A stretch of DNA of 64,000 nucleotides from Phlegmacium glaucopus (Eukaryota; Basidiomycota; Agaricomycetes; Agaricales; Cortinariaceae), in assembly GCA_015039465.1 (NCBI GenBank), contig MU130579.1, positions 151,245 to 215,244 of the forward strand. The letters are read 5' to 3'. Below, one piece after another: positions 3,942 to 49,796 of this stretch. Positions within the stretch are counted from its first letter, which is position 1. The number at the start of each line of letters is the position of its first letter. The position numbers were made by a program, and so were the translations under genes. The notes under the pieces were generated by a model. That model was not told the DNA's origin, made no database searches, and saw only the letters and a list, made by a program, of their open reading frames with translations.

Positions 3942-6900
3942 CTATGAACACCACCTCCTCGCATTCTGGAACAGTTTAAACCATGGCCCCATTCCATCCC
4001 AATGACGCTTGATCGACGCCGGATACCAACTATTACTCTCCAGAGCCACGACTCGTTCAGGATGGGGCATAAGGGCCAAAATACGACCGTCGGATGTTTG
4101 GACTCCCGTAATTCCAGCAGGACTTCCATTAGGGTTGAGGGGATAAACTTCCGTGGGCCGTCCCGCTGAATCGACAAATCGTACAGCAACCAGATTTTGG
4201 CTCTCTAGTGCGTCTTTCTGCGACGAAGCACTGAATGATGCACGTCCTTCACCATGTGCGACAGCTACTGGAAGCATGGATCCCGCCATGCCTGAGAGGA
4301 ATACGGAATTCCGAGTCACCTCATTATCCACGATCTCTACCATTGACACGCGTCCTTCAAATCGTTCAGTCTGATTCGGCTTAAATTCAGGCCACTCTTC
4401 GGTGCCAGGTATAATCTCTCGCAAATGACTCAAGAACTGACACCCGTTACACACTCCCAACGTGAACGTAGTCTCTCGAGTGAAGAAATCAGAAAATTCA
4501 CGATGAGCGATGTTGTTTAGGAGACTAGAGTTTGCCCACCCTTTACCGGCACCGAAAACGTCTCCATACGAGAAGCCTCCGCAGGCTACTAGGCCACGGA
4601 AGTCACAGAGGCTAACATCTCCTTTCAAAATATCTGACATATGGACATCCACTGCGTCGAAACCAGCCTCAGTAAATGCCCAAGCCATCTCTAGTTGCCC
4701 GTTTACGCCCTGTTCTCGAAGAATAGCCACCTTGGGACGTGTTTCAAATACAGGAAAAGGGACTTTGGGGAATTTGAGGTTGTAGAAGATCCCAGTCTGA
4801 GATTCGTCACTGATAAGATCAAACTCCTCTTGTGCTGCGTCAGCGTTATCTCGAAGACTCTGCATCCTGAAGGACGTTTCCGACCATATCTTCTGTAATT
4901 TTGAACGATGAGCGCGGTATATGGTGCTAGACTCGTGGATGAAAGAAATCATTTGATCCTTCGTTACGCGTCCAATGACATGGATCGAGGCCGAAGGGAA
5001 TCCAGCGTTATTGAAGGTGTTCATCAACCGGCAAAAGTCTGATTCCCGAACTTGAACGACGGCTCCCAATTCTTCGTTGAACAATGTCGAGATAGGGTCC
5101 TCTGCACCATCCAATGCACTAAGAAAGATCTCAGCTCCCACCCGACCAGCAAAACACATCTCAACAATAGTGGTGAACAATCCCCCATCGGATCGATCAT
5201 GGTAGGCGAGAACTAGTCCAGGAGCATTAATTTTAGCATCCTGACAACCTTGCAAGAATGCCTTGAGAACAGCGGGGCTTTCGACATCTGGTGCTTCATT
5301 GCCGATCTCTTTGAAAACCTGAGCCAGGGCTGAACCTCCCAATCGTTGTTTACAGTTGGCAAGATCGAAGAATACCAAACTCGTAGTTCCCAAGTCGGAA
5401 CGAAGCTGGGGTGTCCATGTTGTTCCAACGTCCCTTACAGGAGCGAAAGCGGTTACGATCAGAGACAACGGCGAGCTGACTTCCTTTTCTTCTTGTCCAT
5501 CCTTCCATTTCATCGACATGTACATGGAATCCTTTCCTACTGGTATCCCCACCCCCAACGCAGGACACAAATCCATCCCTACAGCCTCGACCGCCTCATA
5601 CAACGCGGCTCCCTCTCCTTCCTTCGACGCAGCACACATCCAGTTGGCGCTAAGCTTGATCCTGGACAAATCACACAAAGTAGCAGCAACGAGGTTCGTT
5701 AGGGATTCAGCGACTGCCATACGCGCTGATGCAGCCGCATTGAGTAAGGCTATAGGCGTACGTTCACCCATGGCCATGGCCTCACCACAGATGACATCGA
5801 AACCGTAGGACGATCGCGTAACTGCCACATCTGCAACGGGAACCTGCCAAGGCCCCACCATCTGGTCGCGAGTGACGAGGCCAGTGACCGTCCGATCCCC
5901 GATAGTGATCAAGAATGATTTAGATCCGACTGAAGGAAGGCGAAGAACACGTTCAATGGTAGATGAAAGTCGTTCAGTTAGTGTTTTTATGGATGGAAGG
6001 TACCTGGCCAGCGAAGAATCGAAGTCTGGCCTATCTATCCGGCGGGTAACGTCCTTCCTTGACATCTTGGGTGGTTTCCCAAATAGAGTTGACATCTTCA
6101 ACCGAATAACGTCTTTGTTGCATAGACGATCTGTAACAATGAGGTCTTCTTCTGCCGCCGCCACACCAACAATCGAGAATGGGCACCTTTCCCTGTTTGC
6201 AATGGACACAAACGCCTCTACCTTATCCACATCAACAGCTATCACATACCGCTCCTCACTCTCGTTACACCAAATCTCCATAGGCGACATGGAAGAATCC
6301 GATGTCAATACGTCTCGGATCTCGAAAATGCCACCCAAACCCGAATCATGGACCAACTCAGGCAGAGCGTTCGACAAGCCACCACTACTAACATCATGAA
6401 TGCTCTGAATCGGGTTGTCCTCGTTCAAGCTCACGCAAGCATCAATCACTTGCTGACACCTCCTCTGCATCTCCGCATTGTCTCTGTGTACGGCCGCGAA
6501 ATCTAATTCCGCAGTAATCGCCCCTGAAACTTGACTTGCCGCCGCTCCTCCTCCCAAACCAATCAATTGACCTGGGCCTCCCAGCACCACGATCTTCGCC
6601 CCCGGACTGATAAGCGCCTTTCGGGCAAATTGAGGTCGAACATTCCCATATCCACCAGCGATCATTATAGGCTTATGATAACCTCTAACTTCTCTCAGTG
6701 AACCGTCCTTGGAAATGGGAACGCTCTCGGAGAACGTGCGGAAATAGCCAGTCAATGCTGGCCTCCCAAACTCGTTATTGAAATCACTTGCGCCTAGTGG
6801 ACCTTCCATCATGATGTCAAAAGCGGAAGCTATATGAGCTGGTCGGCCAAAATCGGTTTCCCAAGGTTGTTCATAGCCTGGAATGAGAAGGTTTGATACC

Positions 6901-7997
6901 GTGAATCCACAGAGACCTGCTTTCGGTTTGGAGCCTCGTCCTACAGCGCCTTCGTCGCGTATTTCGCCTCCAGATCCTGTGGCGCCCCCTGGATATGGTG
7001 AGACAGCGGTAGGGTGATTGTGAGTTTCGACTTTGATCAGAATAGGGATGTCCTCCCAAGTTGACTGATATAGGTGGGTGGAATTAGAAGTCCGGACAGC
7101 ACTGAAACGGGGCGCGGGATGGCCCTCGAGAACAGCAGCATTGTCAGAGTAAGCTGATATTGTACCCGTCCCGTTCAACTTTTCCGTGTTACGGATCATT
7201 TGAAAAAGAGAGGAAGGTAGGGGTTTCTTATCGATTGTCCAAGAGGCGTTGAAGATTTTATGACGACAATGTTCGGAATTGACCTGAGCAAACATGAAGA
7301 GTTCGGCGTCGGTGGGATTTCTATTCATTGCAGAACCTCCGGTAATGTAGGCGTCCACAAGGTAGTTAATTTCATCTGTAGCGAGAGCAAGTCCCATTTC
7401 CGCATTAACAGAAATTAGCTTCGCTCTGGCGTCTTCGGCGATAAATGTCGAACTTTGGAGGTCGACTATGCGGAGAGGTCTGGGTTCTTGATGCAGAAAC
7501 AGTGAATCTTTCTGAGGGGGAGAAAGTCGGACGATTTGCGTCATACGATCATGAATGTGCTGGGAGAAAGTTGAAATATCACATTTTGTGATATTTTGAT
7601 CGCCCTTAGTGGTAAACACGAAAATTGTACCACGCTCGACTCGTTTTATATGGTCTCCGAGCTGGCAGAGGACAGCGATATCCGTAACATTGGTGGACCA
7701 TGGTGATATGGAACCAGGTAGTGGCAAGATATAAGCAAGATTCCGTTGCTTTGCAAGTGCCTCGGTAGTACCATCCAATCTCACATCGTCTCCATAGGTC
7801 AGAAGGCGATCGAGCAGAGCTTCGAACTTTGAAGTAGGATCTGAAACTTCTTTCTCTAGCTTTGGGGATCTGCAATGAACCCAGTGTACCCAAACGGCAT
7901 CAACTGAGATAATTTTTGGACACGATTTTTGGATGTTGCGCAAAAGGGTCTGTCTTTTTGGTTTGGATATCGATGAGGATCCTACGAGAGTTAGCAT
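3942..7997 (-). CDS. ADE6: Phosphoribosylformylglycinamidine synthase
   Basis: This enzyme performs the fourth step of de novo purine synthesis, turning FGAR, glutamine and ATP into FGAM in the cytosol. The 1351-residue length matches the fused fungal/animal enzyme. The linker signature NSEHCRHKIF lies near residues 240-249. The synthetase core has ETHNHPTAVSPYPGGATG near 324-341, followed by GGEIRDEG. The C-terminal glutaminase has GVCNGCQF with nucleophile Cys1183 and PHPER with His1312 and Glu1314, so all three catalytic residues are present. The frame is uninterrupted by introns, unlike the other genes in this window. The start was chosen because MLTLVGSS fits the usual fungal N-terminus and no in-frame extension is seen. 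It reads away from the 7-TM remnant and appears to be a stand-alone gene with no frameshift or premature stop. Confidence 0.97.
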   Translation of the reverse strand: MLTLVGSSSISKPKRQTLLRNIQKSCPKIISVDAVWVHWVHCRSPKLEKEVSDPTSKFEALLDRLLTYGDDVRLDGTTEALAKQRNLAYILPLPGSISPWSTNVTDIAVLCQLGDHIKRVERGTIFVFTTKGDQNITKCDISTFSQHIHDRMTQIVRLSPPQKDSLFLHQEPRPLRIVDLQSSTFIAEDARAKLISVNAEMGLALATDEINYLVDAYITGGSAMNRNPTDAELFMFAQVNSEHCRHKIFNASWTIDKKPLPSSLFQMIRNTEKLNGTGTISAYSDNAAVLEGHPAPRFSAVRTSNSTHLYQSTWEDIPILIKVETHNHPTAVSPYPGGATGSGGEIRDEGAVGRGSKPKAGLCGFTVSNLLIPGYEQPWETDFGRPAHIASAFDIMMEGPLGASDFNNEFGRPALTGYFRTFSESVPISKDGSLREVRGYHKPIMIAGGYGNVRPQFARKALISPGAKIVVLGGPGQLIGLGGGAAASQVSGAITAELDFAAVHRDNAEMQRRCQQVIDACVSLNEDNPIQSIHDVSSGGLSNALPELVHDSGLGGIFEIRDVLTSDSSMSPMEIWCNESEERYVIAVDVDKVEAFVSIANRERCPFSIVGVAAAEEDLIVTDRLCNKDVIRLKMSTLFGKPPKMSRKDVTRRIDRPDFDSSLARYLPSIKTLTERLSSTIERVLRLPSVGSKSFLITIGDRTVTGLVTRDQMVGPWQVPVADVAVTRSSYGFDVICGEAMAMGERTPIALLNAAASARMAVAESLTNLVAATLCDLSRIKLSANWMCAASKEGEGAALYEAVEAVGMDLCPALGVGIPVGKDSMYMSMKWKDGQEEKEVSSPLSLIVTAFAPVRDVGTTWTPQLRSDLGTTSLVFFDLANCKQRLGGSALAQVFKEIGNEAPDVESPAVLKAFLQGCQDAKINAPGLVLAYHDRSDGGLFTTIVEMCFAGRVGAEIFLSALDGAEDPISTLFNEELGAVVQVRESDFCRLMNTFNNAGFPSASIHVIGRVTKDQMISFIHESSTIYRAHRSKLQKIWSETSFRMQSLRDNADAAQEEFDLISDESQTGIFYNLKFPKVPFPVFETRPKVAILREQGVNGQLEMAWAFTEAGFDAVDVHMSDILKGDVSLCDFRGLVACGGFSYGDVFGAGKGWANSSLLNNIAHREFSDFFTRETTFTLGVCNGCQFLSHLREIIPGTEEWPEFKPNQTERFEGRVSMVEIVDNEVTRNSVFLSGMAGSMLPVAVAHGEGRASFSASSQKDALESQNLVAVRFVDSAGRPTEVYPLNPNGSPAGITGVQTSDGRILALMPHPERVVALESNSWYPASIKRHWDGMGPWFKLFQNARRWCS

Positions 7998-10595
7998 GTC
8001 TAAAAAAATCAGGACGAAGTAATATTTAAGTGAACTGGTTTCTTACCACAATCTCGTTTAAACCTCAAGAGACGTCGGGTTCTAAGGAACGATTAGCAAC
8101 CTGCCAAAAATTTTTAAAGGGATTCTGATCGAGCTTTAAGTAGTTATGCCACAAAAATTCGACCTTGAGGTCTTATTCCTCCTCCACAGTTTCCGAACGG
8201 TTCCGTACGGAATTTTATCGGAATTCCTTCGGTATGAAGTGGAGAGGGGAGATGCAGTACTTTACAGCAGTGTTGTGTAGACTGGTATAACTTAATTTAG
8301 ATCACCGATGGTGCGTGCCAACTCCCGATCTCCGGTCCCGTCAAGAAGTTGGGTCCCGTCTGATGCATGCGGCATCCCGCCGTAGGTACTATGATCAGTA
8401 GGACCCGGAAACGGAGACCTATTGATGGACTTTAATACTAATAATAAATACTCGCGGTCACCTTGTGTATAAAACGACCTCTCGAATTTTGGTTTTCCAA
8501 ACTTGAGGACTGGATTAGCGGCTGTGTTATATTATAAGGCCTGACTGTGGTATGGCTTATTTTTCGAGCACGTCATTTTTATATTCGACTCATATACGCA
8601 TACTTTGAATTATTTTTTCCCAACACATTTTATTAATGAACGACACGAGCGATGAGTATTTCTAGTAAGGTCAAGTAGTAAATCCGGTGATAGAGTCAAG
8701 ATACGGTTTTTAGCAAAGTTCAAGGCATGTAGCTTTCAAATCATTCATTCAGAAAATATTTTTAGCTACTTACTTTGTTAGATTAATTTGTCAACAGAAA
8801 ACTGCGAAGTCTCCTTGTGTTAACGCACATTCACTGGCGCTAGATGGTTTGAAACTCCGCCATCTTTAAGCGCCGTAATCCGACTTACCCTTTTCGGCGA
8901 CATCTTGTCGTGGTTGCTTACGAATACTTCGTGCGGATTGTGTTTCTTTGGGTCTAGGGAAAATACAGGTATTTTTAGGGATATGATTTCTTCCAAGCGG
9001 TTCCCAAGTCCCTACTCCAAGCTCTCGGACTTGATCTCGCTGTTCGAAAGAAGTCCCGGATATTGGTGGATCGAAATTGAGTTATAGTATATACCAATCA
9101 ACTGCAAACTCAGGGTAATATGAGGACCCCTGACAGAGGTCAGCACCCTCAATCCAAACAGGTTGCGGAATTTTCTGAAAAACCTTTTGTAGCAGAACCC
9201 GTTCAGATCCGAAGTCATTGGGCGTGGGCTTCAGAACGCCTTTTTTGTCCGGACAGGAGTTGTAGAATCATTAATTATTTTGAGTCAACCTCTGAGCATA
9301 TGTCAAGGGTCCTGGAGTGTGTAGTCACCGTCCAATCGGACTCTGATCGGTGTCCTCCAAGCTAAATCTGGGGAAGCTATCACCGATATCTGGGCCTTCT
9401 TTCTGGGGAAGCATGCTTGATTTAGAAACTACGACAGATTCTGTGAGGTGATCCGAACAGTGCGTGTTGCCAAGGGCCCATTTGCCTTGAATCACATGAC
9501 GTCGCAAGCTATAACAGGATGGTTTCCCAGCACAGACGAGGAAGGGTGCCCTATTACTATTAAGGTAGCTTTGTAGGTAATTGTCAGGCTTCAGCAGAAA
9601 TTCGTGGGCTTCCAAAGTGCACATTTTTACTTCAGAACACCCTTGAAAATTGAAATGACTAATTTTTCCATCGGTTCTATATATTACAAGGCCGTACGTT
9701 GGCCGCACGAGACTTGTACGGGAATATCAAGTGATATTAACGCAAAGCGATTATAGCATATATGTATACTGAATTTGCTCTCATTCTATGTGCGAGAGAA
9801 CGGCTTTCATTGTCAGTTGATGTGCTTGAATCAAGCTTCATTGAATTTTTCCTTATTTGGAGTTCCCACATCCAATGCTTTCTGCAGGGTAAAATGTCTG
9901 CAGTTGTATATTTTGCCACACGTTAAAATTACAACTCCACCTTTTATTCAATGACGCAAACCATACGCCAACAAAATTATACGAGGCAGGATGTAGGGCG
10001 GAAGGCCGCAATGGATGCCGGGTGCGCCAAGTATAGGATACTTGGCATGACTGACCATCGGACCCCCACCATTCGGTCACCCCGTAATTCTCGCTCGTTT
10101 TTGGCTTAATCTACGCTAAAATTAATACATGAGATCCAGTACATATTAGCATTCTATGATTCCCCCCCTCTTACTCCAAAAAAACAACCGCCGGCCTTGA
10201 AACAATGGAACTTGAAGTGTCGATTATGTACGGAGATACGGAATTTACTGAATAACTATGTAAAGGCTCCACCAAAATAATAAAAGGGTCTTTGGAGTTT
10301 GAAATCTCGTATTACATCAGTTACGTGTGATTTGATCGCCGCACTGATGAAAAATAGGTCATTTCAATGGGTTCAAGAAGTAAATATCTGCTGAAACTTG
10401 AGAAATTATCTCCTAATACGGCACCCTTTCCTCGCTGCGCTGGGACTGATATGGCTCATCTCAAATCGGTCTTTTGTCATTTGAACAGAAAAAGGAATCG
10501 ACCACCCCACGTGACCCCAGCGTTACAAACGTGACACTGATCTTTATCGTGACATTACGTCGTAACTTCCAACCATCCATAGGCCTGCAAGACAA
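7998..10595. other. Intergenic, no gene recognised
   Basis: This holds the ADE6 upstream region and about 2.5 kb without recognisable coding sequence on either strand. The longest frame, on the minus strand at 9325-9708, has no homologue or motif I recognise. No repeat shared with the rest of the window was noticed. Confidence 0.45.
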
Positions 10596-23619: not shown

Positions 23620-26600
23620 GTGTTCCGACCCCGATGGGAAAGAACCCTCCCAAAAAAGTTCACTATTAACTCCCTTGATGCTGACTCTAAATCACTGGAA
23701 CTCAAAGTCAGCATTGAGATGACCGACACTGGAGAAGTAAACTCCTTTCTGTCCGTAATAGACTCTGGAGCCAATGGAAGGTTTATTGACAGAGACTATG
23801 TCAAAACTAACAGGCTCACAACAAAGTCCCTGTCAAATCCAATTCTGGTATTTAACATTGACGGTACTCCGAACAAAGCCAGACCAATCACGGAAGTGGT
23901 TGATCTGATACTCAGGTACAAAGGACATTCCGAGAGATCCTTGTTTGCGGTCACTGGACTAGGAAAACAAACCTTGATTCTCGGACATTCCTGGCTTAAG
24001 ATGCACAACCCGGAGATCGACTGGGCAACCGGAGAAGTAAAAATGTCCCGTTGTCCACCCCGTTGTTGTTCGGAATGCAGGAATGAAATCTGAGAAGAAT
24101 GAAAAATTCAAAAGGTGGAAATACGCTGAATTGAAAAATGTTTGACTGGCCCACTTCCGGCTCATGTAGAGGATTGTGATGAGGATGATGAGGAGGAAAG
24201 TAGCCCAAACCCTGAATTTGAGGATGGCAACAGAATATTTGCCACTGGCCTACTACCACTGCAGGCAGATATCCGAGCCACCTCCACCATCTCCCAACGT
24301 CTTGCAGAAGCTTTCCAGCGCAACACACAATCCGAAACAAAAGAAGGAGTTCCAGATTATCTCCATGAACTTGATAGTGTTTTTGCCAAAGAATCTTTTG
24401 ATATCCTACCTGATCTGAAACCTTGGGACCACACAGTAGAACTTATTCTGGGAGAAAAACCATCAGGTTGCAAGGTCTATCCTCTAGCTCCGACGGAATA
24501 AAAGGAACTTGACGTGTTCCTCCAGGAGAATTTAAACTCCAGACGCATCCAACCTTCCAAATCTCTGATGGCATCTCCGGTTTTCTTTATCAAAAAGAAA
24601 GACAGAAGTCTTCGGCTTGTTCAGAACTATTGAGGCTCTCAACACGATCACCATCAAAAACAAGTACCCACTTCCCCTCATTTCGGAACTGATTACCCAA
24701 CTCCAGAGCGCTAAATATTTCACTAAGCTGGACATCCGATGGGGTTTTAACAATGTCCAAATGAAGGAAGGAGAAGAATGGAAAGCGGCTTTCCAAACCA
24801 ACCAGGGATTATTTGAACCCCTGGTTATGTTCTTCGGCCTCACCAACAGTCTGGCTACTTTTCAAACAATGATGAATGACATCTTCCGCAAACTCATAAT
24901 GGAAGGGGTTGTAGTAGTTTACCTTGACAATATCCTGATATTCACGGAGACACTAGAGGAACACAGGTCTGTAACTTGGAGAGTACTGGAACTTTTATGG
25001 AAGCATAAACTCTTCCTAAAACTGGACAAGTGCAAATTCGAACAAACCAAGGTGGAATACCTCAGAGTCATAATATCTCATAACTCCATTGAGATGGACC
25101 CTGTAAAAGTTGCTGGAGTAGTGGAATGGCCAATTCCAACGAACAAAAAGGAAGTCCAGTCATTTCTAGGCTTTACCAACTTTTACGGAAGGTTCATCCA
25201 AGACTTTTCTCATCATGCCCGTCCCTTGTTTGATCTCACCAAAAGTAACATTAAATGGAGATGGAATATGGAAGAGCAGTTGGCGTTCGATTCTCTCAAG
25301 AACCTGATCACTTCAACCCCGAATCTAGCCTCTCCGGACAACTCCAGGCCATTCCGCATTGAAGCGGACAGTTCCGATTTTGCAACCGGAGCTGTACTCT
25401 CCCAACAATCCCTCAATGATGAGAAATGGCACCCAGTCATGTTCCTGTCTAAATCCTTATCTCCGGTCGAACGGAACTATGAGATCCACAACAAAGAGAT
25501 GCTAGCGATCATCCGAGCCTTAGAAGAGTGGAGACACTTCTTCGAAGGAGCGGAACACAAGTGCGAGATCTGGACTGATCACAAGAACTTGGAATACTTC
25601 ATGACAGCCAAAAAGCTCAATTGGAGACAAGCCCGTTGGTCATTGTTCCTAGCCCGGTTTGATTTCCTCATGCACCACAGACCAGGCAAAAGCATGGGAA
25701 AACCGGATGCCTTGTCCAGATGAGCAGATCACGGAACCGGAACTGGTGACAATGACAACATCACACTCCTAACTCCAGGCTTTTTCACGATTCGGGCCTT
25801 AGAAGGACTGGAAGTCATAGGAGAAGAACGAGATGTCTTGAAAGATATCTGGAAGGGTACCTGTGAAGGTGTAAAAGAAGAGGCCATAGCTAAAGTGGTA
25901 AAGGAGTTTGAAAACCACTCACACGCAATCCGTCCGATCGGCAGAATGGTCTCATGACAACGACATCCTCTCCTTCCAAGGAAAAATCTACGTTCTGGAC
26001 ATGTTTGACTTGTGAAGACGGATTGTATCCCCCTGCCATGACACCCTAATTGCTGGGCATCCGGAAGATGGAAGACCCTCAAACTCGTATCCTGAAACTA
26101 TTGGTGGCCACAGATGTCCCGATATATCAGAAAATATGCCTCAACCTGTGACCTGTGTCTTCAGACTAAGGCTCAAAGACGCCACCCAGTCAGTGAACTC
26201 CATCCCCTCCCGATTCCGAATGCTCCATGGGACACAATTAGTGTGGACTTCATAGTGGAACTTCCGGAGTCTTCAGGATACGACTCGGTAATGGTAGTAG
26301 TTGATTTGGTCACCAAACGAGCTCATTTTGCACCAACCCTTACTACCACCTCTGCATCCGGAACTGCTTGCCTTTATATCCAACATGTCTGGAAACATCA
26401 TGGACTACCCCAGAGAGTGGTATCAGATAGAGGACCACAGTTCATAGCGGAATTCACGTGCGAGCTCTACCAGATCCTCAGAATTAAGTTAGCAGCCACT
26501 ACCGCCTATCATCCGCAAGGAGACGGCCAGACGGAACAAGTAAATCAGGAACTGGAACAGTATCTCCGACTCTTTACAAACCAGCGACAAACCAATTGGG

Positions 26601-27870
26601 CCAAACTCCTTCCCCTTGTGGAATTCCAGTACAATAATCATGTCCACTCCGCCACACAGCACCCACCTTTCCTCCTAGACTCCAGACAAATCCCCCAAAT
26701 GGGTTTTGAACTGAGCCAACCGGAATCCCAAATGGAGTCCATTAATGAATTCACAGAACGAATGTGGAACACCCTAGACAAAGTGAAAGCAGCACTGGTC
26801 AAGTCTAAAGACAACATGGCAAAGTATTATAATCAGAAAAGGACTTTGGCACCAGAATACAAACCGGGAGACAAAGTATACCTGGATGCCAGCGACATAC
26901 AAACAATGAGACCATCCAGGAAATTGTCCCATTGGCACCTAGGCCCCTTTCCAATCAAAGAACAAGTCGGCAACAACACTTACCAACTCCAACTTCCCTT
27001 GTCCATGAAATAGTGCTTGAAAGTCCGGTTAGGTTTGGTTATTTGGTGCCCAGGGGCTCTAACTGAGACTGAGACTGGTTAGGCTTCATTCCCAAACCCA
27101 AAATAACCTAACCGGACTGAAAATAACTGACCAAAACCAGTTAGTTGCAGTTACTAACCAGTTAGGACCGAAAAAATGAAAAACCGGTTATAACCGGGCA
27201 AGACCATACATATTTCTCTCAATAAAAATTATTTCCACGCATCGTAGCTTTAAAATGAGCCCACGAACGCTAAATTTGATGAAGAATTGACAAAGCTATG
27301 ATAATATTCTTGAAAGTCTACTTTTGGCCAATATTTTAAAGATTTGACCATAACTCAGTCAGACTTTTAGCATTTCTCACGTTTTTGGGTGCGTTTTAAA
27401 GGGGTATAATAGGGTCGTTTATAACCGGTTATTTCATTTTCAGAATCAACTAACCACTAACTGCGGTCCGGTCTTTTTGCGGTTAGGTCCGGTCCAGTCT
27501 TGGTTATTTTCCGGTTAATTAACCGGACTTTCAAGCACTACCATGAAATGACTCCATCCAGTCTTTAACGTAGTCAAACTGACTCCAGCCCAAATAGACC
27601 CAATCCCTGGAAGACGCATTCCAACTCCTCCACTTCCAGAAATCATTGATGGAGAAGAGGAATGGGTCGTCGAGGAAATCCTCGACAGCAGAGTTATAAA
27701 CAGGAGGTTCCGATACCTTGTGAAATGGCAAGACTTCGGAATTGAACATAACACCTGGGAGCCTCAGGAAAACATACACGCCCCCGAATTAGTCGCGGAA
27801 TTCCACAAGAAGTACCCCGGAGCTCCTAAGCACATCAGGATGGCCAAATTCGAACAGTTTCCTTTCATGC
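23620..27870 (+). pseudogene. pol of the gypsy chromovirus with C-terminal chromodomain
   Basis: Domains in order are as follows. Protease comes first (FLSVIDSGANGRFID, active-site DSG, about 23745-23790). Reverse transcriptase follows (KYFTKLDIRWGFNNV; catalytic box YLDNILIF rather than YVDD, about 24920). RNase H (EADSSDFATGAVLSQQ, about 25365) ends HHRPGKSMGKPDALSR. Integrase has an HHCC zinc finger (about 26000-26160) and a core with SVDFIVELP, VSDRGPQFIAEF and YHPQGDGQTEQVNQELE. A chromodomain closes the gene (EEEWVVEEILDSRVINRRF, YLVKWQDFG, TWEPQENI, about 27655-27770). Stops occur at 24,091, around 24,100-24,130, at 24,499 and near 24,640, where a one-base insertion also shifts the frame. 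More occur at 25,721, 25,955 and 26,012. A MITE at 27,011-27,540 separates the integrase end from the chromodomain. Confidence 0.9.
27011..27540. repeat. hAT-type MITE, family TAGTGcTTGaAAGTCC (copy A)
   Basis: This 530-bp element has terminal inverted repeats TAGTGCTTGAAAGTCCGGTT of at least 20 bp and an exact 8-bp target duplication CCATGAAA (27003-27010, 27541-27548). The interior is rich in ACCGGTTA-like strings and has no coding capacity. It is related by its ends to the element at 54,730-55,307. Confidence 0.92.
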
Positions 27871-44561: not shown

Positions 44562-45455
44562 GTGTATCACCGGATGTGGCATATGCAGTTGGGATACTGT
44601 CCCAATTTATACAAAATCTGGGCATCGCACACTGGGAAGGATTGAAATGTGTCATTACTTATCTGGGAACAATGAAAAATTATTGGCTCACCTTTGGAGG
44701 TCGATCAAATGTGCTCCTTGAAGGATACTGCGATGCAGATTGGGCAAGCCAAAAGCATCGGCACTCCATATCAGGATACTCATTTCATTTTGGGCAAGGT
44801 GCAATATCCTGGAGTTCAAAGAAGCAACACATCATTGCATTGTCGAGTATGGAAGCAAGATATATAGCACTTACCCATGCAGCTAAAGAGGCGTTGTGGA
44901 TGAGGAGTTTTGTGAATGAGATGAGGGGATCAACACTGGGACCTATGCAAGTCAATTGTGACAATCAAGGTGCAATAGTGCTCGCAAAAGACAACAAATT
45001 TCATTCCAGGACAAAGCATATTGATCTACAATATCATTTTATCAGGGAAGCAGTTGAGGATAAGAAAATCAAAATATACTACATACCGACGGACGAAAAT
45101 GTCTTGGACATTTTCACCAAAGCTTTGGCAACCATTGATAACGCAATCAGCACATTTATCATCACATGATGATTGCATGTGTGATAATGGAGATCAACGG
45201 TGTTTCACTTGAGGGGAAGTGTTGGAGTATACAAGTTTCATCTCATTAATCTCCTATTAAGTATTTATCTATTTTGTATCTTATCATTTCTCTTTACTTT
45301 TGTGTCACAATAATGGTCACATCTTATAGTCATGAATTTTAGTATAGCAAGTCTCAACTTTCTATCAAAAGTTGAGATGTGAGTTCACTCATTTATTCCT
45401 TAGTTATAATATCTAACATATACCTAGTTATTCATTTATTGTTCTAGGTATATTA

Positions 45456-45862
45456 TTGCTGTTTTCAAAAAGGCTGGCGGTAGGTCACATCGCGTCACAC
45501 ACAGCAATCTTCCAAGTTCAAAGTTCTGAATGAACTATCTCGGGATCCACTGGTCGTACGGCAATTATTTTGTGTGCATTAGAATGGTCTCGATTAGTAG
45601 ATGTGCACCCCACTTTAAAATATATAGTTTGGTTAAGTTTTAGTGGTGCTCGAAAATGAGGGTCTCAATGGTGTAGGGCATGAACCTTTGAGGCGGTGGC
45701 ACGGTAAAAAAATATAATTCTTTCATAAAGTGGTTCTAATGTATGTAAAGGAATGCGCCCCATGAAAAAATTGGTAAATATGAATGTGGTGGATGCTAAA
45801 TTCGCATGTAGGACCTTTTGAGTGGTGACACCGGTCACAGGCTCCATCTTTTCTGTTCACTT
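45456..45862 (+). repeat. Left terminal inverted repeat (407 bp)
   Basis: It matches 49,051-49,457 in reverse complement. Differences noticed are a T for C and an A for G around 45,790-45,816, and one base near 45,856. It contains TTTAAAATATATAG near 45,615, a possible core promoter. The transposase ATG is 46 bp beyond its inner edge. An open frame of about 60 codons inside the repeat appears in both ends and is not taken as a gene. Confidence 0.95.
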
Positions 45863-45908
45863 CAATCAGTCTACGTGCTTGTTCAACATCGGATCGTCCT
45901 TCTGACAC

Positions 45909-47118
45909 ATGGCTCGTGGAAAGGCTCTCTCAGATGACCTCAGGGATGTTCTCTTACACATGGCTCAATTCTTGGACATCGATACTATTACTCATTATAC
46001 CAGTTGCAAAAGGAGAACCATTGAGCGGATTCTTTCAGACTTCCGTAAAACAGGGTCTGTAGCTCGACAGCACCTCAGGAAGGGTCTACTGCATGGGCGT
46101 AGGAGGGCCACAAATGGCCAGGATGTCCAAGTAAGACTCTATTCTTCCATGTTTTTTCATTATTTCACACCTTCGTGTACAGTTTTTGCAAGGCCTTGTT
46201 CGTCATAGCCCCAATGTCTATCTTGATGAAATGCGGGAGTTGCTAGAGACACGTAGAGGGATTAATGTTGGGAAGCCGACAGTCTGGAGGGCACTCATTA
46301 GGAGTGGTTTTACAATGAAGAAGGCAAGCTCTTTCTTTGATTTTCGTGTATCAATATCGAGACTTACATTGACACTAGCTCACTCGGGATGCACTGGAGC
46401 GAAGTGAGGCCAAGCGAGCTCTTTACCGCTATCAATATGGTACCCAGTTTACTCCAGAGCAGACTATTTTTGTCGACGAAAGCTCCTTCGATCGCAGAAC
46501 TTCCATCCGTGGAAAGGCATGGGCATTATCGGGGCAACGCGCAGTACGAAATACTTTCTTTGTTCGAGGGCGGCGGTAAGATATGAATCTGTGAATCTTC
46601 GAGACTTTGACTAATAATTCACTCTTCCTCTTCAGTTACTCTCTACTCCCTGCGTTGAGCCTTGATGGTGTCATTTTCACAAAGATTGTTGAAGGATCCT
46701 TCACAGCACTTCGATTCCAGGATTTTATATCACACTTACTTGATTATATGCAGCCTTATCCGTTGCCAAACTCTGTGATCATAATGGATAATGCCCGTAT
46801 TCACAAGAAACCTGAGGTCCTTGAGATGATTCGTGATAGGTATGGACAGTAATTGTTATCCTTTATTCCTATTTATTGAATGGATTGTATAGAGGCATGA
46901 GGGTCATGTTTTTGCCTCCTTACTCACCGGATTATAATCCTATCGAGTTGGCATTCTCATCAATCAAGGCATATGTTCGGCAACATGGTGAGCTTGGCAG
47001 GCAGGATGTAGACCAGAACGCCGATGATAATTATGTTTACCTCCATTTGTATGATGCCGCCTTCTCTATAACTGCAGATCATGCTTTAGGATATTTTCAC
47101 CACTGCGGATACATTTAA
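45909..47118 (+). CDS. DD34E transposase (Tc1/mariner-IS630 type)
   Basis: This enzyme would cut and join the element's own ends at TA targets. Five exons give 329 residues: 45909-46130, 46183-46323, 46379-46575, 46636-46839 and 46893-47118. Introns are 52-60 nt. Intron 2 uses a GC donor (AAG/gcaagc) with a normal AG acceptor. The N-terminal region (LSDDLRDVLLHMAQFLDIDT and on to RRTIERILSDFRKTGSVA) looks like paired helix-turn-helix DNA-binding domains. Catalytic residues are D154 in FVDESSFD, D238 in IIMDNARIHK and E273 in PPYSPDYNPIELAF. The 34 residues between the last two define DD34E. FFVRGRRYSLLPALSLDGV, spanning exons 3-4, is a family hallmark. No stop or frameshift was found after splicing. 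The start is the first ATG after the left repeat. It converges on the accessory gene. Confidence 0.93.
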
Positions 47119-47248
47119 AATTGATAACATATCATATTACAAAGTATATAATTTGTTGTTGATAATTCAGCATTACTGTTGAAGAATTAGGTGATAGGTG
47201 ATAGAAAAAAAGGATAGAAGGGATTATTACGAAGTATGTAACTTGGGA

Positions 47249-49005
47249 TTATACCAAACAAAGTCGCTTGGGCTCTTGAAGGCTTATAAAATCATCTTGA
47301 GCAAATGCAAGGAGCCGTTTAGCAGTACCAATGTTGATTCCAGGTATAACTGTCATTAGTTCGTCTGATGTTAACCGAAGAAGGTCCTCCAGGTCATCAA
47401 TACCATTTGCAGAAAGGCTCTCATAGAAACCCTGGTATCCTTGAGCTTTCTTCCCTCGAACAGGATGCTGTTCGAGGGATTCCAGCCAGGTGTCAAGCTT
47501 TGGGTATTCAAATGGAGAAGCAGGGCGTTTTAAGGGAAGAACAGGTGGAGGAGGTGTTGAAGGATGCATATACTGGAGGGGCATTGGAATGGGAGTTGGC
47601 GTTGCTGGAGGATTCATTGATATTATTCGGTTATTAGTTGCAATGTTTCCAACTAGCATCACACCCATTAGCTGCTGCATCCACTCCGGCATGTTTGAAT
47701 TCGAGCTATCTGCTTGAGATCTCACCAACGACTTCTTAGCAGAATGTTGTCGTGGAACCACATCGGTAAGCTTGAGGTCATCAGGTGGGGTATCAAGAAG
47801 GGCTTTGTTCTGGACCTGCAGACAATTTTAGCAAAGCAGATAATAGGTAAAAGAACAATAGACATACCATGAGATGAGCCCACTTGGTGATATCATTCAT
47901 TGTGAGCTGATAATGCTCACCGTCAGCCTGAACAAAACACGGCTTCTTATGTTGTTGACACATATGACGTTTTTCAATCTTCTTCAATGCTGACAGGTGC
48001 TCCGACTCCTTTGAGGTAAGGGCAGGTACAGGAGGCTCAACCGCTGCAGCAGCCATCCTCCTCTTCTATCATCTCACATGTAAATACCCGATCATAACTC
48101 CAAGATATTTCAGAAACCTCACCTTGGGATCTGAGTCAGCCAGCGCTGTCGTATCAACAATATTAATGTGAAAGGCCTTGACCGTGCCTTTGTTGTTTTT
48201 CCCTTTGCAGGCAAGGATGAAAGCATGTACGTCTTCCAAGAGCTTGTGCCAACTAGCATCGTCTTCAAGAAGCTTAGGGACAGGTTTTGATGTTTTTGGC
48301 TTATATGAGGGAATATAACCGATCCCAGCTAGCAAAGTCAATGAGACTTCCATGCGTTCAGATAGAAGACGCAAGACATGCGCAAAGGGTGTTTTCGATG
48401 TTATACCATCAACATCACGAGATGCATTGCGGTAAGGTACAACAATAGGGACGTGGAATTCAGGGAGCTTGGGTCGGACAGGTGAGCCAGTGGGAAGAAA
48501 AAGTGCTAGAATTTAATTACTTAGAGTCAAAATTGGAAATGGATTGATGGACAAACGACCTACTCGAAGCATCAGAGTCTGAGTCTGAGGCATCCAACTC
48601 GTCAACTTCATCCTCTAGTTCATCTACAAGCTGGTATTCCTCTGCCTGTTCCTCCTCCACATAAAAATCTTCTTCATCCGAAGCTTCAAAACTCATCATA
48701 GGACCAATTGCATGGCGGAAAGAGCGGTGGGTGGGAGGTGAATTCTGATTGACCGTGTTAGTGCAGTTTTGCAGAGAGACGAGAGCACAGGCAGCAGCAG
48801 CCTCATTGGCCCCATTTTCGACACTGGCAGGCTTTGGGACAATGGGACGAGGCTTAGGACGCGGCTTTGGTTGTGAAGGAGTGCTAGTGGAGTTCGCATT
48901 CTCATCCAGTGCAACAGAATCCGTGGAAAGTTTGGTGCCTTTGCGGCGACCAGTAGCCGATGGGGCACGCGAGGTGAGAGATTTCTTCTTCTGCCCACGC
49001 ACCAT
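47249..49005 (-). CDS. Accessory protein with SAM-like C-terminus carried by the transposon
   Basis: Exons 49005-48564, 48505-48123, 48065-47868 and 47815-47249 give 529 residues; introns are 52-58 nt, GT-AG. The N-terminus is basic (MVRGQKKKSLTSRAPSATGR), followed by a KPRPKPRP stretch. An acidic block comes next (DEEDFYVEEEQAEEY; ELEDEVDELDASDSDSD, about 113-147). A globular middle has LPEFHVPIVVPYRNAS and FHINIVDTTALADSDPK. A Cys/His-bearing stretch (KRHMCQQHKKPCFVQADGEH) leads to YQLTMNDITKWAHLM. A proline-rich linker follows, then a SAM-like domain at about 445-517 (YPKLDTWLESLEQHPVRGKK; GIDDLEDLLRLTSDELMTVI; GINIGTAKRLLAFAQDDF). I do not know a named family. A role in targeting, chromatin binding or regulating the transposase is inference from its place in the element. 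The start is the first ATG inside the right repeat. Confidence 0.85.
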
Positions 49006-49050
49006 TACGTGAAAGGGAGCGTGGCGCTGTCAAATGAATGTGGGAGTGGG

Positions 49051-49457
49051 AAGTGCACAGAAAAGATGGAGCCTGTGACCGGTGTCACCACCCAAAAGGT
49101 CCTACATGCGAATTTAGCGTCCACCACATTCATATTTACCAATTTTTTCATGGGGCGCATTCCTTTACATACATTAGAACCACTTTATGAAAGAATTATA
49201 TTTTTTTACCGTGCCACCGCCTCAAAGGTTCATGCCCTACACCATTGAGACCCTCATTTTCGAGCACCACTAAAACTTAACCAAACTATATATTTTAAAG
49301 TGGGGTGCACATCTACTAATCGAGACCATTCTAATGCACACAAAATAATTGCCGTACGACCAGTGGATCCCGAGATAGTTCATTCAGAACTTTGAACTTG
49401 GAAGATTGCTGTGTGTGACGCGATGTGACCTACCGCCAGCCTTTTTGAAAACAGCAA
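49051..49457 (-). repeat. Right terminal inverted repeat (407 bp)
   Basis: It mirrors 45,456-45,862. The accessory gene's ATG at 49,005 lies 46 bp inside its inner edge, the same distance as for the transposase on the other side. Confidence 0.95.
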
Positions 49458-49796
49458 TAATTAAACCAACTTTCTATCAAAATTTGAGACTTATTCATTT
49501 ATTGTTCTAGCTGCAAAATATTACAGCAACACCTTACACCTATATACTACAAGTGTAGGAGCTAATACAACTACATATGGCTAGTACATAATAGAAGGTA
49601 GGGTGTGGTAGATACCAAGTATAGATATGACATTGGTTACAATGTCATCGGCAAAGGGACAGCTACTACAACAATAAGGGAGTGCACACAAGGAGCAGGA
49701 TAAGGGTAATGTGGTATGGAATACAATCATAGAGAAAGTGAAGGTAAATACATACTGAGCATGCGTAGAGGCAGATACAATGAGTATCCCCTGACA

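Follow-up and report, generated by a model that had tools for sequence, protein, structure and literature searches.

Does a transposon of the Tc1/mariner type own the second gene that lies between its ends, or has it merely picked up a stray neighbour? In textbooks, Tc1/mariner elements exemplify transposition by a single protein, a property on which vectors like Sleeping Beauty are built. The question is raised by a 4,002-bp element of the mushroom Phlegmacium glaucopus, at positions 45456-49457 of a 64,000-nt window, the whole stretch of DNA analysed here (assembly GCA_015039465.1, contig MU130579.1, positions 151,245-215,244 of the forward strand; window numbering is used throughout). This window lies on the contig that we call C210, in an assembly of 60.5 Mb. 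Between its inverted repeats the element carries a transposase gene and, convergent with it, a gene for a protein of another kind, hereafter the second gene.

A second gene that recurs beside the transposase

A search of the genome with the transposase gave 80 matches, which resolve into at least 41 loci. As a query, the window's second protein matches only two close copies. The DNA past diverged transposases holds open frames on the opposite strand, pointing inward and sharing a central motif, in its fuller form C-x2-H...C-Y-V...G-x-H...W-A-x-x-M, with a C-terminus that is SAM-like by eye. Six queries, the window's own second gene and five from diverged kin, were used for the count of second-gene places, at E<=0.001. 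Pieces on one contig made one place (on C62, C148 and C109 the pieces lie up to about 12 kb apart, the intervening DNA being taken for later insertions), and two 17-residue matches on C8 (E 0.0045) were left out. Of the 29 places found in this genome, 26 are convergent beside a transposase; once the queries are set aside, and with them C229 as an identical copy, the figure is 19 of 22, six of these 19 (C5, C228, C41, C127, C223, C119) having been spotted before the second-gene searches. Transposase and second gene are separated by 23 to 1,323 bp, with a median of 153, and the chance of convergent neighbouring is about 7e-4 per place. Counted from the other side, 31 of the 41 transposase loci have a partner: the same 26, with C171, C138, C22, a second locus on C171, and C184, where C22 and the second C171 locus were scored by eye from layout and C-terminus.

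Two sets of exceptions weigh against a strict association. Three of the 29 second-gene places (C14, C224, C237) have no transposase match, and among the 36 transposase loci open to judgement five read as partnerless (C187, C169, C47, C80, C156), C187 being a fragment; the rest of the 41 are one masked and four unread loci. The first-pass annotation of this DNA had proposed that the pairing would be accidental if other transposase copies lacked the second gene and if the second gene lay alone at unrelated loci. As a rule, neither is seen. Because second-gene places recur convergent beside transposases, the pairing is not accidental, and these comparisons support the view that the transposase has in the second gene a genuine partner of long standing. 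As a separate observation, C144 and C229 have equal transposase scores, and their second gene is 99-100% identical to one query in the larger exons; such likeness may mean that the element jumped very recently, or that the assembly contains two haplotypes.

The pair is also found in at least one other mushroom. The protein records considered were 24 distinct second proteins and the best 120 of 548 transposases. In Gymnopilus dilepis, a transposase (P0012) and a second protein (P0131) lie on one contig of 3,396 bp; their consecutive tags (CVT26_008289 and CVT26_008290) on so small a contig are strong evidence of linkage. In Hypholoma sublateritium, a transposase (P0015) and a second protein (P0003) are each recorded on a contig of 175,153 bp, and this equal size is good evidence that they are linked. 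The other 21 second-protein records from outside this genome have no size-matched contig among the transposases listed; this does not speak for absence, since pairs there would easily be missed on short contigs, where transposases are unannotated, or beyond the 120 transposases considered. A record from the willow Salix suchowensis (P0019) is 53% identical to the mushroom transposase, by fungal contamination or horizontal transfer.

Anatomy of the element and its insertion site

The element sits in a long terminal repeat (LTR) of the Ty1/copia type (Table 1). The first-pass annotation had noticed TA on both sides and 407-bp repeats with about three differences. The two arms differ at exactly three positions (0.7%), and the TA is borne out as a true duplication: four of five other copies of the host LTR are uninterrupted, with a single TA in TTAA, and the fifth is deleted there. 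From these empty sites it follows that TA alone, two bases, was duplicated inside TTAA; a piggyBac-type duplication of TTAA was rejected on this ground. One repeat comparison gave 412 bp instead of 407, because the target sequence around TA is itself palindromic. Repeat and start codon are 46 bp apart at one end and 45 bp at the other, and the convergent stop codons are 129 bp apart. With its TA, the left terminus resembles those of kin (for example TTACAGCTGTTTTCA of C127); the end plus flank of the window element reads TTATTGCTGTTTTCA, and in eight relatives each of the 16 ends reads TTACAG, in which T-TA precedes a similar terminus. TTAA appears to be the preferred insertion site, with TA alone duplicated, the empty sites examined being those of the window copy. 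No short repeats of note were found within the window's inverted repeat, and the element had no match among plasmids.

Table 1. Features of the two-gene element and of its host LTR, in window numbering
Feature	Position	Strand	Details
Ty1/copia-type LTR hosting the element, 5' part	45221..45455	+	begins TGTTGG
TA target-site duplication, left copy	45454..45455	.	target T-TA-A; empty site in 4/5 LTRs
Left terminal inverted repeat, 407 bp	45456..45862	+	terminus TTGCTGTTTTCA
Transposase gene	45909..47119	+	exons 45909-46130, 46183-46323, 46379-46575, 46636-46839, 46893-47119; 329 aa; splice model predicted
Intron 2 of transposase gene, GC-AG	46324..46378	+	
Second gene	47249..49005	-	exons 49005-48564, 48505-48123, 48065-47868, 47815-47249; 529 aa; splice model predicted
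Intron 3 of second gene, phase 0	47816..47867	-	immediately past the W-A-x-x-M motif
Right terminal inverted repeat, 407 bp	49051..49457	-	
TA target-site duplication, right copy	49458..49459	.	
Ty1/copia-type LTR, 3' part	49460 to about 49530	+	terminates CAACA

The five predicted exons of the transposase gene join into 329 amino acids (aa) with no stop, one of the four introns being of the GC-AG type. Read by its letters, the protein has 34 residues from the second D to the E (DN...NPIE), the first D lying in FVDESSF, in agreement with the earlier description of a DD34E transposase free of disabling changes. Pfam finds DDE_3 at 2.9e-29, the IS630 model NF033545 scores 163 bits, over its cut-off of 100, and the nearest solved chains are those of Sleeping Beauty (E 0.001) and SETMAR (E 0.009). 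Full-length homologues exist in the protein records (P0012 and P0013). Together with this transposase, the terminal inverted repeats and the TA duplication expected of the IS630-Tc1-mariner group are both present, and on these sequence grounds the element is a member of that group.

A second close copy, on contig C5 (L009), is 99.1% identical to the window element over 1,956 bp. It is damaged: an AGGC-rich stretch interrupts the last exon of its second gene, of which the part next to the transposase matches from residue 477 onward and no earlier, and in the transposase itself one match gives way to another in a different frame at about residue 50, which is read as a frameshift. Repeats that differ by 0.7% and a copy that differs by 0.9% fit a recent move of the window element; against this, gene conversion between the arms may be another source of the similarity of the repeats. 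The flank of the C5 copy, seen on one side, reads like the start of the same copia LTR, broken at another TTAA.

Elsewhere in the window, just beyond the host LTR, positions 49530-49700 hold the start of a repeat with about 40 further matches elsewhere, most of them 83-92% identical. Open frames for reverse transcriptase and integrase, which we take to be Ty3/gypsy-like, lie at 24569-27013 on the plus strand, and an open frame of 1,366 aa at 3942-8042 on the minus strand presumably resembles the purine enzyme FGAM synthase.

The second protein and its possible role

The four predicted exons of the second gene join into an open 529-aa frame, in keeping with the second intact spliced gene first described. 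Its product carries a C-x2-H-x3-C-x7-H motif. P0001 is a homologue with 63% identity over its own whole length, and P0002, a Phlegmacium glaucopus protein, is 99% identical over half its length to the second protein. A PB1-like fold, a central region with the W-A motif and a SAM-like C-terminus are predicted, fold assignments coming from models of the homologues P0001 and P0131. By sequence, the best match in the PDB has an E of 0.073. The P0131 model gave nothing at E<=0.001 against viral structures, the rows including helix-hairpin-helix and ubiquitin-like proteins, and among viral contigs 47 stretches were considered for the second protein, none of them confirmed.

Elsewhere, domains of the PB1 and SAM kinds make protein-protein contacts or chains. 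We lean, by a modest degree, to the reading that this is a two-gene IS630-Tc1-mariner transposon, with a transposase predicted to cut and paste into TTAA and a PB1-like/SAM-like protein as its likely partner in assembly or targeting. Going by what is known of the family, the transposase would do the chemistry, cutting the element out and pasting it into TTAA sites. The anatomy suggests that each inverted repeat would act as promoter for the gene just inside it; with promoters borne by repeats at mirror-image ends, both proteins would thus be made together. If its predicted folds are a guide, the second protein would self-associate through PB1- and SAM-type contacts, and it would cluster the transposase on the ends or tether it to target DNA. 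From these modelled folds we infer that the second protein would serve transposition. A wider proposition, offered tentatively, is that mushrooms hold an old, diverse two-component IS630-Tc1-mariner lineage, where a self-assembling PB1-SAM partner, driven by a mirror-image promoter, is obligate and directs the element to TTAA.

The second protein could also work outside transposition, protecting the element, either by shielding it from host silencing or by holding its own transposase in check. We regard this main rival as unlikely, albeit a serious contender, as several observations suit it. Contact-type domains would serve a regulator equally well. A partner conserved beside the transposase would be expected too, together with a low dN/dS (ratio of non-synonymous to synonymous substitution rates) in one pair: between C144 and C119 the second gene has a value of 0.15 and the transposase one of 0.10, with dS near saturation, this being the single diverged pair for which a second-gene value was computable. 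In the young trio C127/C41/C223 the values are higher (0.52-0.73 for the second gene and 0.69-0.79 for the transposase), as expected after insertion. Furthermore, identity to the window's proteins is 53% for the second protein versus 82% for the transposase in Hypholoma, and 35% versus 66% in Gymnopilus; judged by these figures the second protein is the faster to change, which is what conflict with the host would lead one to expect. What speaks against protection is that, over several subfamilies, 31 of 41 loci retain the partner, beyond the need of an optional defence.

One origin or several

A further possibility is that the second gene arose once in agarics, in this family only, the convergent genes of other subfamilies being unrelated acquisitions that share its layout. 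Likeness between the subfamilies is indeed weak: second-protein profiles match at E 1.6e-4 once and otherwise at 0.3-8.9, and Pfam SAM matches one of four kin second-protein pieces, below threshold. Against separate acquisitions stand that one profile match, the agreement in position and orientation, and C-termini that are SAM-like by eye in several subfamilies. To this must be added a detail of gene structure. After the W-A motif, each of the 12 loci read has a GT able to open a phase-0 intron, with G at the fifth intron position in nine and the full C/H motif, by eye, in six; the W-A/GT patterns were written after the feature had been seen, and for C182, where the automatic model chose a donor ahead of the motif, the longer exon was used instead. 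Separate acquisition therefore seems improbable, and common descent of the second genes is likely.

The histories of the two genes also agree. A transposase tree of kin only has three groups with 100/100 support, which are the groups recovered by the second-gene queries; therefore both genes travelled together. Between these groups the transposases are 29-45% identical. Where the ends of kin could be located, their second gene sits inside the same inverted repeats. There remains the accidental pairing, an ordinary one-gene Tc1-like element with a captured or neighbouring gene, for which the five partnerless transposases and the three lone second genes might be invoked, but which the second-gene searches refute for this genome, where convergence at 26 of 29 places far exceeds chance, and which the shared repeats of kin and the pair in Gymnopilus, and probably in Hypholoma, make very improbable.

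Three further elements, on C193, C112 and C238 (L010, L011, L012), were not accepted as full relatives, having different outer ends (TATGGCAACAG) and no match to either gene. They are 2.0-3.5 kb long, end in TA-TGGCAACAG, and have inverted repeats of 593-598 bp that are 98-99% identical, an inner stretch of 249-274 bp being 72-74% identical to bases 74-347 of the window repeat.

Comparison with known systems

In other superfamilies, some transposons work in a similar way. MuDR of maize has a pair of convergent genes whose promoters lie in its long inverted repeats, one in each, a layout that works like that of the window element; it differs in belonging to the Mutator superfamily, with a 9-bp duplication and unrelated proteins. 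PIF/Harbinger elements are comparable in that movement needs a transposase plus a second element-encoded protein, and differ by their 3-bp duplication, their Myb-like partner and a transposase of another family. Minos-type elements have a single transposase gene, unlike the two genes found here.

The first-pass annotation had described Tc1/mariner elements as carrying normally one gene and far shorter repeats. This stands for the usual Tc1 element, described in a passage of PMC7325037 as having one open reading frame (ORF), about 1.3 kb in total and repeats near 30 bp; it does not hold for Minos and Tec, the long-repeat exceptions named in the same paper, nor for the multi-gene elements of ciliates. 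The window element is like the Tc1 family in its DD34E transposase with DDE_3, its TA duplication and its inverted repeats, and departs from that usual description in having two convergent genes, 4.0 kb and 407-bp repeats. Repeats of several hundred base pairs are shared with Minos and other long-repeat Tc1 elements (PMC7325037). Since repeats measure 29-103 bp in the two-gene kin, and Minos and Tec provide other cases of long ones, the earlier suggestion that 407-bp repeats mark a distinct type had to be given up. Closest in gene content are the TBE/Tec elements of ciliates, which passages of PMC7325037 and PMC4724952 present as multi-gene Tc1/mariner-type elements with a DD34E transposase and three ORFs; the Tec repeats are about 700 bp long, one extra ORF is in reverse orientation, and the extra ORFs of TBE are under purifying selection. 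The likeness is that of multi-gene DD34E elements. The differences are that only two genes are present here instead of three ORFs, that TBE/Tec belong to the ciliate germ line, and that their partner proteins are others, a PB1-like/SAM-like protein not being described in those passages. No account of a fungal two-gene Tc1/mariner element with such a partner was found in the literature, Repbase and subscription journals lying outside the search. Multi-gene Tc1/mariner elements are known from ciliates, and the comparison suggests that this fungal lineage, with its PB1-like/SAM-like partner, is new.

Meaning for the biology of mushroom transposons

One consequence concerns annotation: records such as P0003, P0006 and P0131, labelled 'SAM domain-containing' or hypothetical, count transposon genes as host genes. 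Another is that a second protein kept through deep divergence makes a natural test of what a partner contributes, be it assembly, targeting or escape from silencing, and the lineage may offer a system that prefers TTAA. In general, the second gene keeps company with related transposases, repeatedly in this genome and also in at least one further mushroom species, and this suggests a partner protein that probably helps the lineage to move or to persist.
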